From the NCBI GenBank assembly GCA_964017185.1, contig OZ024880.1:36794329-36858328 (forward strand): a stretch of DNA of 64,000 bases, read 5' to 3'. Positions within the stretch are counted from its first letter, which is position 1, and each line of letters opens with the position of its first letter. This DNA is from Rugalucina vietnamica (taxonomy: Eukaryota > Mollusca > Bivalvia > Lucinida > Lucinidae). The notes under the pieces were generated by a model, which made no database searches, was not told the DNA's origin, and saw nothing but the letters and a program-made list of their open reading frames with translations. This document shows, piece after piece, positions 41,801 through 59,800 of this stretch. Both the position numbers and the translations under genes were made by a program.

Positions 41801-44800
41801 ATTCTCGGGAAATAGGCATAGAATTCAGTTACTCTGAAAAAGACAAAGAATTCAGATACTCACTACCAGCCTATGCATTTTTTTCTGTTACAGAGATCTA
41901 GCTGGAGAGAGATTAAAACTGAACAGAGAATTTTTTGATGAGCGATGGTCCAAACACAGGGTGATCACCAGCTTAGATTGGTCAACACAGGTAAGATGGA
42001 GTGACATTATGATAGAACCTCATTACTCTAGCATGGCCATGTGTACATTAAGTAATTTGAAACTTCAAAAAGTCTTGAGAAAAGATTTATTACCAGGACA
42101 TCAGAACCAGTATTTGAGCTTAAACAAGAGGGCTGAATAGGAGCAGAGCCCAGAGGTCATGGGTTCAAAGCCTGCTTCAGGTTGTGTACATGACCAAGTG
42201 AGCAAGACACAGTCACCATAGAGCTGGTTAAGTACCTGGGGAAAGTTGTCTCTGTCCCAGTATCACTGAAGAATGTCTGGGACATTAAGACTCATACAAC
42301 AAACAAAATATCTGCTTGTGTTCCAGCACCCTGAGTTACTAGTAGCCTCGTACAATGCCAATGAGGATGCACCACATGACCCTGATGGTGTTGTTCTCAT
42401 CTGGAACTCCAAGTTTAAGAAAACCACACCAGAATATGTCTTCCATTGTCAGGTAACAGAATTATCTACACCGATATATGAGCCACTACGAGAAAGAAAA
42501 TGGTCTTTGGGGGTTTTGGACCGGGTCAAACACAAACCTGCTTGTGCAGCCAAGAAAGATTGGTAGAATCTCGAAATTTTGAATTTAAGAAGAAGAGAAA
42601 TTGCACTATCCTTGTAGTGTAAACAAAGGTGCTGATCAGCTGTGCAGTTACTTCACAGCTGATTTGCAGCTTTGTTTTCGCATAGGCAAAAATCTGGCAT
42701 ATTTGGTATTGTACATGATTTTTGTCACCGGAATACCGTAGTTTTTTATATACTATTCTGAAATATTTTGCATAAATTTGAATATGTGGAATGCATTGAA
42801 ATCCAAGTTTTGGACTAGCTTCCTTTAATAATTTTTGTGATCTACATGTATTTGAATTTAGTGTGCACTAATTAGAATGAACTTTGAGCATTTTTGAGCA
42901 AATTTGAAAATTTAGAAACTTAAGCCTACAGTACACTAAATAGAACAAATACTGTAAATAAATCTGCAGTTGTAAATATTCCGTCATTCAAAATAAAAGA
43001 AATTGCAACCCACGTGCCTGATTGATGAAGGTAGCTGATTTTAATACCAGTCTGAATCATTTGAGGTGCGATGCCAGAAAACTAGTCTTCGGGGTTTCCG
43101 ACCAGGTCCGACACAAACCGGCCTGTGTAGTCACAGAAAAAAGCTGGAGGCTTGATATTTTGGATTTAAGTAGAAGATGAATTGTACTGTTCGAGTAGTG
43201 AAAACAAACGCACTCATCAGCTTTGCAGTTACTGCACAGCTGATCTGCTCCTGTGTCTTTGTATAGACAAAATCTGGTTTTCTCATGACGCCAGTCATCG
43301 TGTCCTACCAAGTCCTGGGTGATTTTTCTTGGGGGTACTCCTGAACTACCCCCACCTGCCACCTACTGAGTGACCTGTCTCATGTCGACTGAAATCATCT
43401 TGAAAGGGATGTAAAACTAATCATTTTATCTTTAACAATGGTATGTGAGTAATTATTTCTTTTCCCCCCTGCAGTCAGCTGTGATGTTGAGTTGTTTTGC
43501 CAAGTTTCACCCTAACCTGGTAGTGGGGGGTACCTACTCTGGTCAGATAGTACTGTGGGATAACAGAGTCCTCAAGAGAACCCCCATAATAACTGTGGCA
43601 TAACCAGTTAACAATTTATTAGCTCGCCTGCACGAAGTGCACAGAGCTATTGTTGTCACCTCGGTCGTCCGCGTTTACGTGTACGTCCGCGTCCGTGTCC
43701 GCGTCCGCGTCACACTTTCGGTTAAAGTTTTTAAAATTGTTATATCTTGATAGTCACTGACCAGAAATCATTCATATTTGGAACATTGCTGCATATGAGG
43801 GTCCTCTGTGATTTAGTGTGGAGGGACCCATGGGGTCATGCCTGGGGGCAGGGCTAGAGGTCAATATCTAGATCACCTTTGTACAATGCTCAGATGCTGT
43901 GTTAGTTTCTCATCAACTGTAAAGCCTAGAACTGTCAAACCTTACATAAGGCTTCTCCTCGATGTCCCAACTTGGCACCCACATTGACCTACTGACCGTG
44001 ACCTATATTTCATGCTCCAGTGACTTTGTCATTTTTGAAGCCAACCCTTAATATCTCATCAACTATAAAGCCTACAACCATCAAACCTTGCATATGGCTT
44101 CTCCTCGATGTCCCGACTCGGCACCCACATTGACCTACTGACCTTGACCTATATTTCATGCTCCAGTGACTTTGTCATTTTTTAAGCCAACCCTTAATAT
44201 CTCATCAACTATAAAGCCTAAAACCATCAAACCTTGCATATGGCTTCTCCTCGATGTCCCGACTTTGCACTCACATTGATCTAGTGACCTTGACCTATAT
44301 TTCGTGCTCTAGTGACTTTGTCATTTTTTGAAGCCAACTCTTAATATCTCATCAACTATAAAGCCTACAACCATCAAACCTTGCATATGACTTCTCCTCG
44401 ATGTCCCGACTTGGCACCCACATTCACCTAGTGAACTTGACCTATATTTTGTGCTTTCGTGACTTTGTCATTTTTGAAGCCAACCCTTAATATCTCATCA
44501 GCTATAAAGCCTACAACCATCAAACCTTGCATATGGCTTCTCCTCGATGTCCCGACTCGGCACCCACATTGACCTACTGACCTTGACCTATATTTCATGC
44601 TCCAGTGACTTTGTCATTTTTTAAGCCAACCCTTAATATCTCATCAACTATAAAGCCTACAACCATCAAACCTTGCATATGGCTTCTCCTCGATGTCCCG
44701 ACTTTGCACCCACATTGATCTAGTGACCTTGACCTATATTTCGTGCTATAGTGACTTTTTCATTAAAGTTTTTAGAAGTCTATATCTCTTGAACATGTTG

Positions 44801-56800: not shown

Positions 56801-59800
56801 ATAAGGTTTTCTTCTCGGAAAAGTTCAAAACACACGATTTGGCAATCAGCTGTCTAAGGGTGTCGAACATTTTACTTAAATGGGTGATTTCCTGCAGAAT
56901 GTACCGATCGAGGCAAATAACACAATAGTTTTGCTGGTCCGTAAGGTGTGTTTGATTAAGATAAACAAAAAAGGAACATCAGAATCAATAAACAAATCTT
57001 ACTCACCGATTCGTGTCCACCAAAATCCGCCATTTTTTTTAGTAAACTATACGTTGCGCTTTAGTAGCCTATACGTTGCTTTAATTTCCTGTACGTAATG
57101 ACGGACCAGGGTGAAATAGTTTTTGGGCATAATTATCTTATTTTTGAACCGATTTTCAAACTTTTTGTGTCACTTTTTAGGACTCATGAGATGCAAAAAG
57201 ATGACATGGTCATAGCTTTCTTGTGGTGTTTCAGAAAAGTGAGATTTCGAAAAATGCAGTTTCTGAAAGATGGTGTTCAGACAGTAGTTGCTTTACATGT
57301 GCAGGCTAGTTAGTCACGCTCCTCATCATTGAAGAGTTCATCCTTATCATCACGAAAACATGTCCGTGACATGTATACCCCCTTGAACCCCACTTTTATA
57401 TAGCAAAACTGGGGTATGCAGGGGTATACCTATTTTTCTTATTTTTGCTCCAAAACATAGATTGTGGGTACTCGTTAGAACCGCCTCACCGAGGCGGTTC
57501 TAACGTGTACCCACAATCTATGTTTTGAGCAAAAATAAGAAAAATATCAAAAGTTTTCTACAACTTTTTCTTCAATTTTTACAACTTAAAAAATCTCCAT
57601 ATATTGCATGGGCAAGTTTTCGTAATGATTTAGGTATATTGAATGTTTCAGGACCAGAAGTTTCTCCATTCATTTGAGGACAACAGTGATTATGTATATG
57701 ATGTACAGTGGTCCCCCATTCACCCAGCTCTGTTTGCTAGTGTGGATGGGATGGGTAGACTAGACCTCTGGAATCTCAACCAGGACACCGAGGTAGGGGC
57801 TGTTTGTTTATTTGTTCAGTTATCATATCATACTGTCCATCAGGAAAAACATGTCCAATGTATACCCCGTTAAACCCCATACTTATATAGCAAAACTTGG
57901 GTATACCTAGTTTTCTTATTTTTGCTCTAAAACATAGATTGTGGGTACTCATTAGAACCCCCTCGCTGAGGCGGTTCTAACGTATCCACAATCTATGTTT
58001 TGAGCAATAATATTAAAAATGTCAAGTTATTTTTACAAAAAAAATTTCATTTTTTATATCTCTAAAAATTTCTGTTTAATGTATGGGCGTGTTTTTGTAA
58101 TGTTTTTTTTTTTTTATGTCTGCCACTGAAAATACCTTCTTTTGAAGAGAGTGTATATCTTCAGCAAAATATCTTGCAAAAAAGAAAAATTTGTTCATAA
58201 CTATTAAAGGTTCTACCACAAAGCATTTTGAAAATAGATTTTCTTTCTAAAAAGATGATAACTTTCAAAAAAAGATATGGTATTGTGTTTGTTGTTTGGT
58301 TGCAGGACATTTTGTCTAAAACCATTTCGTCTAAAGGACATTTCATTAATATATGCAGCAGAATATATATATATATATGTATGATGTATGGTTATAATCT
58401 TTATTTATCTGTTATAGGTCCCCTCAGCTTCTGTCTCTGTAGACACTGGTATAGCGTTGAACCACTGTCGCTGGCACCAGAGTGGACATAGTATAGCCGC
58501 GGGAGACGACGTCGGGAGAATATATATCTATGATGTAGCAGAGGTAAGCATATGGAAATACAACTCTCAGCATGCCCATAGCTGCTGTCTGTGATGTTAA
58601 ACAGTGAATAAATTTAAAGCTGGACTTGACTGTTCTTATTTAGCTCACCTGAGCCATACACTAACAAGGCTTATAGGATAGGCAGGTACCTGGTGTCCGT
58701 CAGCCCGTCCATCTGTCAAAGTGGTCATTGTCTTCCACCATTTTCAAATATCCTCTTCTCTGATACCACTTGACCATTCATAGTCAAATTTTATAAAATG
58801 GCTGCCATGCCCATAAATCAGGCCTGTGGAAATAGCATGCCCGACTTGTCCGACCTGAGAAGACAGGTCAAGTGACTTTTAAAGACCTGCTTGTCCTTGG
58901 ACAAGTGAAATATTCTTACTGGTTTAAACAACAACTGTGTTGTTGCAAAACTATGCGTATGTTTAGTGTCACATACAAAGTTTCTTTAACAGTTTGATGC
59001 CCAAAGACACCAATTAATTAGTATGAGATAAGTTTTTAAATAAATCCATTTATTATTCATGAAATAATGTATAGATAGTTCCTGCATGACAAATATCACG
59101 TTTTCTGCCACACAAAATGGCCGTTTGTGTTTGCATACATGGGATCAACTGTATTTTGAATACAGTAAGGTGACAGTTAGCTGGTTAAGCTTGTTAGAAA
59201 TTATGCACCTTTTCCATTGTCAACCTCTAACGGTTTGTGAACCACTCACATGATCACATAACAGTAACTGTACATAACTGCTTTGCCTTGAAAAATCAGC
59301 CATTTTATGTGTCAAAATATTCTTGTTGTGACATCATGCAGGAACTATGTATAGTTGTCACCTTGTTGGACAAGTATATTTTTGAAAGGGCATGGGGATT
59401 TTTCTTAATTACTTGTCCCTGGACAAGTGGAATTTTGAATGTGTACATGAATTACATGACCCTGTGATTACCTTACCATATACCTATTTACAACAAGGTC
59501 AACATAGGTTGTCCATGCATTTGAATGGGGATAATTGTTAAAATGTCATTTGAAGGGAAGAAATTGACTGAAGATTCGGACCCCAGGGGTTGGTCTGTCC
59601 CCACCACAGGGCAATATACATGTATATTACCATAATATTCAAGATCGTCTTCTGAGAAACTGCTTGGCCAACAAAAGCCATATTTTATATGAAGCATCTA
59701 TATGAAGGGGAACCAATGTGTACATAAACAATCCAGGTCACTTGACCAAGATGGAGACCATACTCAAATTTGGTAAAACAACCTTTCAAAAATCTTCTTC

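Follow-up and report, generated by a model that had tools for sequence, protein, structure and literature searches.

Foldback MITE-A ends are commoner close behind 5' splice sites than deeper in introns of the lucinid bivalve Rugalucina vietnamica

In the genome of Rugalucina vietnamica, the ends of a short foldback element, MITE-A, are commoner close behind 5' splice sites than deeper in introns, and the size of this donor-side effect is modest. The pattern was brought to attention by an earlier note on one 64,000-nt stretch of this genome (the window), in which consecutive donors of a single gene are each followed by a MITE, and we confirm that this observation is real. The host gene, which is broadly expressed, encodes the cytoplasmic dynein 1 intermediate chain (DYNC1I): its exon 10 aligns, over 42 of 42 residues, with PDB chains of cytoplasmic dynein 1 intermediate chain 2, and the remaining exon borders are predicted from reading frame and GT/AG signals, adjusted by eye.

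The MITE copies that lie beside splice sites in the window are collected in Table 1. The earlier note had placed MITE-A starts at intron nt 27, 18, 13, 35 and 12 behind exons 10 to 14, a MITE-B 45 nt past the exon-15 donor and a further MITE-A at 37 nt behind exon 3; all of these positions are borne out, with differences of at most 1 nt. We also accept that the donor-side copies are separate insertions, since their strands differ (exons 11 and 13 carry minus-strand copies) and the five other MITE-A copies are 74-92% identical, over the aligned part only, to the exon-14 copy used as reference. Matching 4-bp flanks are kept in four of the six donor-side MITE-A copies (exons 11-14), the other two (exons 3 and 10) having a decayed right end, and the copy behind exon 13 is interrupted by another foldback element. 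The MITE-A just before exon 3, on the acceptor side, is absent from the earlier note, and 14 of the gene's 20 MITE-A copies sit elsewhere in its introns.

Table 1. MITE copies beside splice sites of the DYNC1I gene (positions in the window; strand is that of the element)
Feature	Coordinates	Strand	Remarks
Exon 3 donor GT 22788 and MITE-A 22825-23055	22788..23055	+	37 intron nt before element; right end decayed
MITE-A 15 nt upstream of the start of exon 3 (22700)	22450..22684	+	
Exon 10 donor GT 42453 and MITE-A from 42479	42453..42725	+	26 intron nt before element; left flank ATAT; right end decayed, hand-set
Exon 11 donor GT 45816 (gene +) and inverted MITE-A 45833-46044	45816..46044	-	17 intron nt before element; flanks ATTT/ATTT
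Exon 12 donor GT 46588 and MITE-A 46600-46818	46588..46818	+	12 intron nt before element; flanks AAAT/AAAT
Exon 13 donor GT 47231 (gene +) and inverted MITE-A from 47265	47231..48118	-	34 intron nt before element; flanks AAAT/AAAT
Exon 14 donor GT 48793 and MITE-A 48804-49039	48793..49039	+	11 intron nt before element; flanks ATAT/ATAT
Exon 15 donor GT 57793 and MITE-B from about 45 nt into the intron	57793..58102	+	right end by eye

The exon-14 donor together with its element (48780-49060) folds at -115.9 kcal/mol with a z score of -9.7, and a hairpin this stable is what might be expected if hairpins behind donors were retained for aiding splicing or masking cryptic donors. We regard such domestication as highly improbable, in that the copies differ from one another, are decayed or split and lie in either orientation, all of which has the look of neutral insertion. 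Orientation bias as a clue to function was dropped for the same finding of both orientations.

MITE-A is a non-autonomous DNA element of about 234 bp, built of inverted ends of 28 bp around an inner palindrome of 67 bp and flanked by a 4-bp target duplication, AWWT. For instance, the copy at 25245 is 236 nt long, runs from TGAGCC to GGCTCA, has ends that agree at 26 of their first 28 positions and contains a 67-nt imperfect palindrome. The target duplication was read from 105 copies with exact TGAGCC and GGCTCA ends: the adjoining 2-mers are equal in 89 of the 105 (22.9 by shuffle), and in 96% of 210 readings the next base outward is A (left side) or T (right side), which gives AWWT. Copy number is high, one copy having yielded 5097 first-look candidates and 82 matches from the 40 that were scored. 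Its shortness, inverted ends, central palindrome, target duplication and high copy number are those of a MITE. The Sola superfamily was considered for MITE-A owing to the 4-bp duplication, and the literature search found nothing that joins Sola with AWWT.

Within the gene, six of the 20 MITE-A copies (limits set by hand, one truncated copy counted in) lie no more than 50 nt from one of 16 donors, where 0.46 would be expected; six such copies were reached by 2 of 200,000 uniform shuffles and by 8 of 200,000 shuffles within introns. The window statistic is post hoc, because the earlier reader chose the pattern; the genome-wide counts are not.

Genome-wide, the donor heptamer AGGTAAG, a gap and then the exact MITE-A end TGAGCCGC were counted, so that the numbers refer to these ends and this one heptamer only. 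Matches numbered 143 at gaps of 5-14, 327 at 5-35, 191 at 36-66 and 172 at 300-330, that is, 14.3, 8.8, 6.2 and 5.5 per nt at gaps of 5-14, 15-35, 36-66 and 300-330, respectively. The earlier note had named a lack of genome-wide enrichment near donors as what would refute it; enrichment is present and declines over about 35 nt, being sharpest with 10-19 intron nt before the element, where the peak is 2.6 times the level at 300-330. Introns that end before 330 nt depress that last bin somewhat, introns around the matches often being short, and 36-66 is the cleaner null. The reverse-complement heptamer with the same MITE-A end gave 145 matches at gaps of 5-35 as compared to 327, and chance is expected to supply about half of the 327. 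A separate classing by gap drew on the first matches listed (94 of 327 for the donor, 100 of 145 for the control), the whole count at gaps of 5-14 being 143 against 156 when scaled up from those listed. Duplicated regions inflate the counts slightly: the first 100 donor matches contain 94 distinct strings, and repeats were left out of the gap classing. MITE-B shows the same strand asymmetry, with 227 donor matches against 112 for the reverse-complement control, the only control with which it was compared, and no peak at the shortest gap among the matches listed (100 of 227; control 100 of 112).

The successive steps from 5-14 to 15-35 to 36-66 are unlikely to be a length artefact, because that would require introns shorter than about 70 nt, and the MITE-free introns of the DYNC1I gene (n=16) measure 278 to 8381 nt. 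For 216 flanks taken without regard to the motif, single-base composition would give a near/far ratio of 0.95 (interval 0.80-1.13), and such composition is thus not the source of the donor excess. These results bear on the possibility that the pattern reflects local coincidence and base composition, DYNC1I being merely rich in MITEs and AT-rich intron starts supplying AWWT sites. The gene does hold 20 copies, MITE-A density is equally high in the flanks of other copies (0.37-0.51 per kb), and in small samples the majority of copies lie away from donors; nevertheless, the window shuffles and the genome-wide gradient with its composition check argue against coincidence, which we consider quite unlikely.

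Acceptors are enriched as well, by a smaller factor of 1.2-1.3: there were 3280 near matches, 2665 far and 2420 with the reverse complement. A first impression of a strong acceptor effect, taken from the 3280 matches, shrank against the 2420 and 2665 controls and was set aside. The observed ratio to the reverse-complement control is 1.36, where composition would give 1.12, and the acceptor excess is only partly, not fully, separated from T-richness; its gap classes derive from the matches listed, 100 of 3280 and, for the control, 88 of 2420 (up to C1:31.4 Mb). The suggestion of an insertion bias toward 5' splice sites therefore stands in part. The genome-wide donor excess of both MITE-A and MITE-B agrees with it; the smaller acceptor excess and the sampled copies, most of them away from donors, do not, and since acceptors are also enriched, 'behind 5' splice sites' is better put as exon edges, chiefly on the donor side.

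Exons proven by homology end at six of 30 donor matches retrieved. Four of 20 donor-side peptides (from 19 of the 30 loci, L040 twice; frames taken by eye and the choice not blind) passed Pfam cut-offs, with domain matches that reach the donor or stop 2 residues short, as compared to none of 20 control peptides, one from each of 20 loci and in most cases the longest frame (one-sided P 0.053). A PDB search, run for donor-side peptides only, found ILK and GALNT1 exons; an apparent receptor exon at L035, represented by one peptide, gave no PDB match. Exon names beyond DYNC1I exon 10, the Pfam four, ILK and GALNT1 are presumptive. In a scan of 30 loci chosen by similarity to one MITE-A copy, the first of them the window itself, a donor-like site scoring at least 6 lay within 50 nt of 2 of 60 MITE ends (L011 and L022, neither proven as an exon end) and of 1 of 60 control ends, under a donor weight matrix whose score-6 line misses weak donors such as that of exon 14 (4.4).

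We tentatively favour, with slightly less than even confidence and from standing copies, an insertion preference for exon edges combined with selection that spares the donor side. The transposition machinery may prefer exon-edge DNA, such as the linker beside a nucleosome positioned on the exon, or open DNA under transcription; selection would mostly remove insertions in exons, on the donor or in the branch point and pyrimidine tract, and survivors would accumulate on the donor side, just past the U1-binding bases. DYNC1I, a broadly expressed gene, would stand at the extreme; if open in the germ line, it could be expected to gather insertions, and little effect on splicing would be expected.

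Alternatively, insertion might be even and survival uneven: intron interiors would be lost by deletion while exon-adjacent DNA is protected, deletions that reach an exon being lethal, and donor-side copies would last longest. To the eye, donor-adjacent copies in the window look slightly more diverged than the remaining copies, and introns carrying donor-side copies are otherwise short, about 125-680 nt without the element at seven loci (read by eye, with a partly presumptive identity for the following exon), as after shrinkage. Genome-wide, however, median identity is 86.0% for donor-side copies (n=27) and 87.7% for controls (n=29; P 0.33), no difference in age, and this equal divergence does not suggest longer donor-side survival; the fall from 5-14 to 36-66 nt also seems steep for a deletion shadow. 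We hold this account to be somewhat unlikely.

The transposase might instead be tethered co-transcriptionally, R-loops or U1 snRNP-bound transcripts at 5' splice sites providing a donor-specific target. The sharpness of the excess at 10-19 intron nt fits this, as does the contrast at gaps of 5-14 against the far bins (2.6 times for donors, 1.3 for acceptors, chance diluting the two motifs differently). Against it, acceptors are enriched too, and selection alone also predicts a donor/acceptor asymmetry, as reported for mammalian retrotransposons (PMC3088655); such tethering appears distinctly improbable. A wider proposal is that a DNA transposase of this lineage finds the exon-intron junctions of transcribed genes by way of R-loops, nascent RNA bound by U1 or nucleosomes positioned on exons, with the result that the entire MITE population tags 5' splice sites at 10-19 intron nt; this strikes us as unlikely.

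Among the titles and abstract openings searched, with subscription papers and preprints outside the search, no preference of MITEs for 5' splice sites is mentioned, nor was exon-intron-junction targeting by DNA transposons found there. By description only, MITE-A can be likened to an element found in introns and promoters whose consensus of 210 bp has imperfect inverted ends of 30 bp and a palindrome of 77 bp; its authors could not identify a target duplication, whereas MITE-A has AWWT, and the portion of the description consulted reports no relation to splice sites. Introners are gene-biased, and in 104 of 132 genomes computation indicates that they lean toward nucleosome linkers (Gozashti et al. 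2022, PMC9860276), but Introners create introns, whereas MITE-A is preceded by 11-37 intron nt, has its splice sites outside the element and is flanked by exons that include conserved ones.

Either a family with such density just past donors is a natural probe of transposase landing sites in transcribed chromatin, or it shows hairpins to be harmless there; in both cases this genome makes it possible to measure directly how insertion bias and selection shape the content of introns. A comparison lies in the intronic 'underrepresentation zones' of human and mouse, where transposable elements are reported to be depleted near exons (Zhang et al. 2011, PMC3088655): DNA elements of all lengths are depleted within 50 bp of exons in human and 100 bp in mouse, and those elements that remain no more than 20 bp from exons lie preferentially on the donor side (three retrotransposon classes), which is ascribed to selection at acceptors. 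The donor-side lean is thus common to both systems, but near-exon depletion there contrasts with enrichment behind donors relative to deeper intron here, and in this respect MITE-A runs contrary to the mammalian pattern.

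The earlier note claimed that foldback MITEs stand just inside the intron behind six consecutive donors (5' splice sites). The gene is DYNC1I, for cytoplasmic dynein 1 intermediate chain. The measured offsets bear this out, with MITE-A, a foldback element of about 234 bp, behind exons 3 and 10-14 and a member of a second family, MITE-B, behind exon 15. Exon borders were set by reading frame and GT/AG, then adjusted by eye; all 42 residues of exon 10 align with cytoplasmic dynein 1 intermediate chain 2. On the upstream side of exon 3, another MITE-A stops 15 nt short of the exon.

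DYNC1I and the MITEs behind its exons
Feature	Position in window	Strand	Intron nt before element	Basis
DYNC1I, read as 17 exons	~20784-63124	+		frame and GT/AG signals
MITE-A behind exon 3			37	
MITE-A behind exon 10			26	
MITE-A behind exon 11			17	
MITE-A behind exon 12			12	
MITE-A behind exon 13			34	
MITE-A behind exon 14			11	
MITE-B behind exon 15			starts ~45 nt past exon	

Within 50 nt of the 16 donors, 6 MITE-A copies are seen where 0.46 are expected. In a chance test on MITE-A alone (20 copies, 35,243 nt of MITE-free intron), at least six donor-side copies arose in 2 of 200,000 trials of uniform shuffling, and in 8 of 200,000 when each copy was shuffled within its own intron. Fourteen of the 20 copies lie away from donors, and one is within 50 nt of an acceptor (3' splice site). 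Carrying MITE-A at 6 of its 16 donors makes DYNC1I an extreme case.

The window holds further repeats. The exon-13 MITE-A is interrupted by a different foldback element, whose inverted arms are long (47345-47923, limits by eye), a nested insertion. Upstream of the full exon 11 (45669-45815) lie three truncated copies of it (43475-45815, by eye), the first set apart by a repeat insertion of ~1.7 kb; each has an acceptor and a replaced 3' end with no GT at that point, and they are possible decoy acceptors. Intron 14 carries 329-nt arms, 98% complementary and 4.7 kb apart (51695-57039), with reverse-strand ORFs between them. Directly 5' of the gene are five copies at 1370 bp spacing (14716-20495), which share 99-100% identity across a reference stretch of 300 nt; another long unit occurs twice in 1-2720, and ORFs resembling reverse transcriptase pieces lie in both orientations in 3540-6138 (both by eye).

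The copy at 25245 measures 236 nt and is bounded by TGAGCC and GGCTCA; it has inverted ends of 28 nt and a 67-nt palindrome off-centre toward one end. Among 105 retrieved copies with exactly these ends, the adjoining 2-mers are equal in 89 (22.9 expected from shuffling), and for the next base outward 96% of 210 readings give A at left ends and T at right ends. The target duplication is therefore AWWT and MITE-A proper is GAGCC...GGCTC, ~234 bp; the ATAT, ATTT and AAAT flanks previously taken as signs of separate insertions are such duplications, and the insertions are independent.

Pattern counts over both strands of the entire genome (1.09 Gb, 47 contigs) extend the proposed enrichment behind donors to MITE-A at large, AGGTAAG occurring 5' of TGAGCCGC 327 times at gaps of 5-35 nt between motif and element against 145 for its reverse complement, and to MITE-B, whose ends show a like excess (227 versus 112 in the control) with no shortest-gap peak among the matches listed. 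The MITE-A bias is not exclusive to donors. For MITE-A the density falls from 14.3 per nt at gaps of 5-14 (143 matches) to 8.8 at 15-35, 6.2 at 36-66 (191) and 5.5 in the far bin, 300-330 (172). From single-base composition the near/far ratio should be 0.95 (0.80-1.13; 216 flanks chosen independently of the motif), so near matches outnumber those of the far bin by about 164 ± 26 and roughly half of the 327 are expected by chance. The usual donor reads GTAAGT; in 94 distinct strings from the first 100 of the 327 matches, position +6 holds A in 32, T and G in 23 each and C in 16, and is not T-rich; either many matches lack donor function or MITE-side donors are unusual. Many MITE-A copies do not adjoin donors: in a scan of 30 loci, picked by similarity to one MITE-A copy, only two of 60 ends had a site resembling a donor (score 6 or higher, no more than 50 nt away), neither proven, and so did one control end.

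Are the matches real exons? MITE-A homology lies within 320 nt of the matched end in 28 of 30 fetched loci (L031-L060). From 19 of these loci 20 peptides, frames chosen by eye, were compared with Pfam; four passed the curated cut-offs (dynein D4, BBS7 platform, Sybindin and arginyl-tRNA synthetase), their matches extending to the donor or stopping two residues short, and one further protein matched below cut-off; none of 20 control peptides from L061-L090 passed (one-sided P 0.053). In PDB searches of peptides from these loci (L031-L060), two matched ILK and GALNT1 up to the last residue, and a third had no match.

At the other side of the exon, TTTNCAG occurs 3' of the MITE-A end GCGGCTCA 3280 times at gaps of 5-35 (1107 of them at 5-14), 2665 times at 300-330, and 2420 times at 5-35 as its reverse complement. 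This excess, 1.2-1.3 times over the far bin, exceeds what composition accounts for (near/far 1.03, sense/antisense 1.12), so a smaller effect probably exists at acceptors, and donors are not unique. The branch-point consensus is yUnAy, which CTCAT, within the MITE-A right end GGCTCAT (e.g. 49035-49041), fits; a MITE-A just 5' of an acceptor could thus provide a branch point and hence be tolerated.

Depletion near exons is reported for human and mouse (PMC3088655). Selection by itself predicts such depletion, and enrichment therefore needs either an insertion preference for exon edges or longer survival of copies there. The slightly more decayed state of the window's donor-side MITE-A copies leans weakly toward longer survival; donor-side and control copies are equally diverged, which leans weakly toward insertion preference. 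For introner elements, a bias to linker DNA is reported on the basis of prediction (PMC9860276). An insertion preference of that kind would work at both sides of an exon, and selection at the branch point and pyrimidine tract would thin the acceptor-side copies; R-loop or U1 tethering is possible, and the findings do not require it.

MITE-A is an ordinary MITE, its anatomy close to that of a Lucina pectinata MITE (PMC4732748), and a bivalve transposon survey (PMC10294476) gives MITEs a considerable share of host genomes. Among titles and abstract beginnings of open-licence papers, none came up that describes a MITE family concentrated just downstream of 5' splice sites; what is unusual is the distribution of MITE-A, not the element itself.
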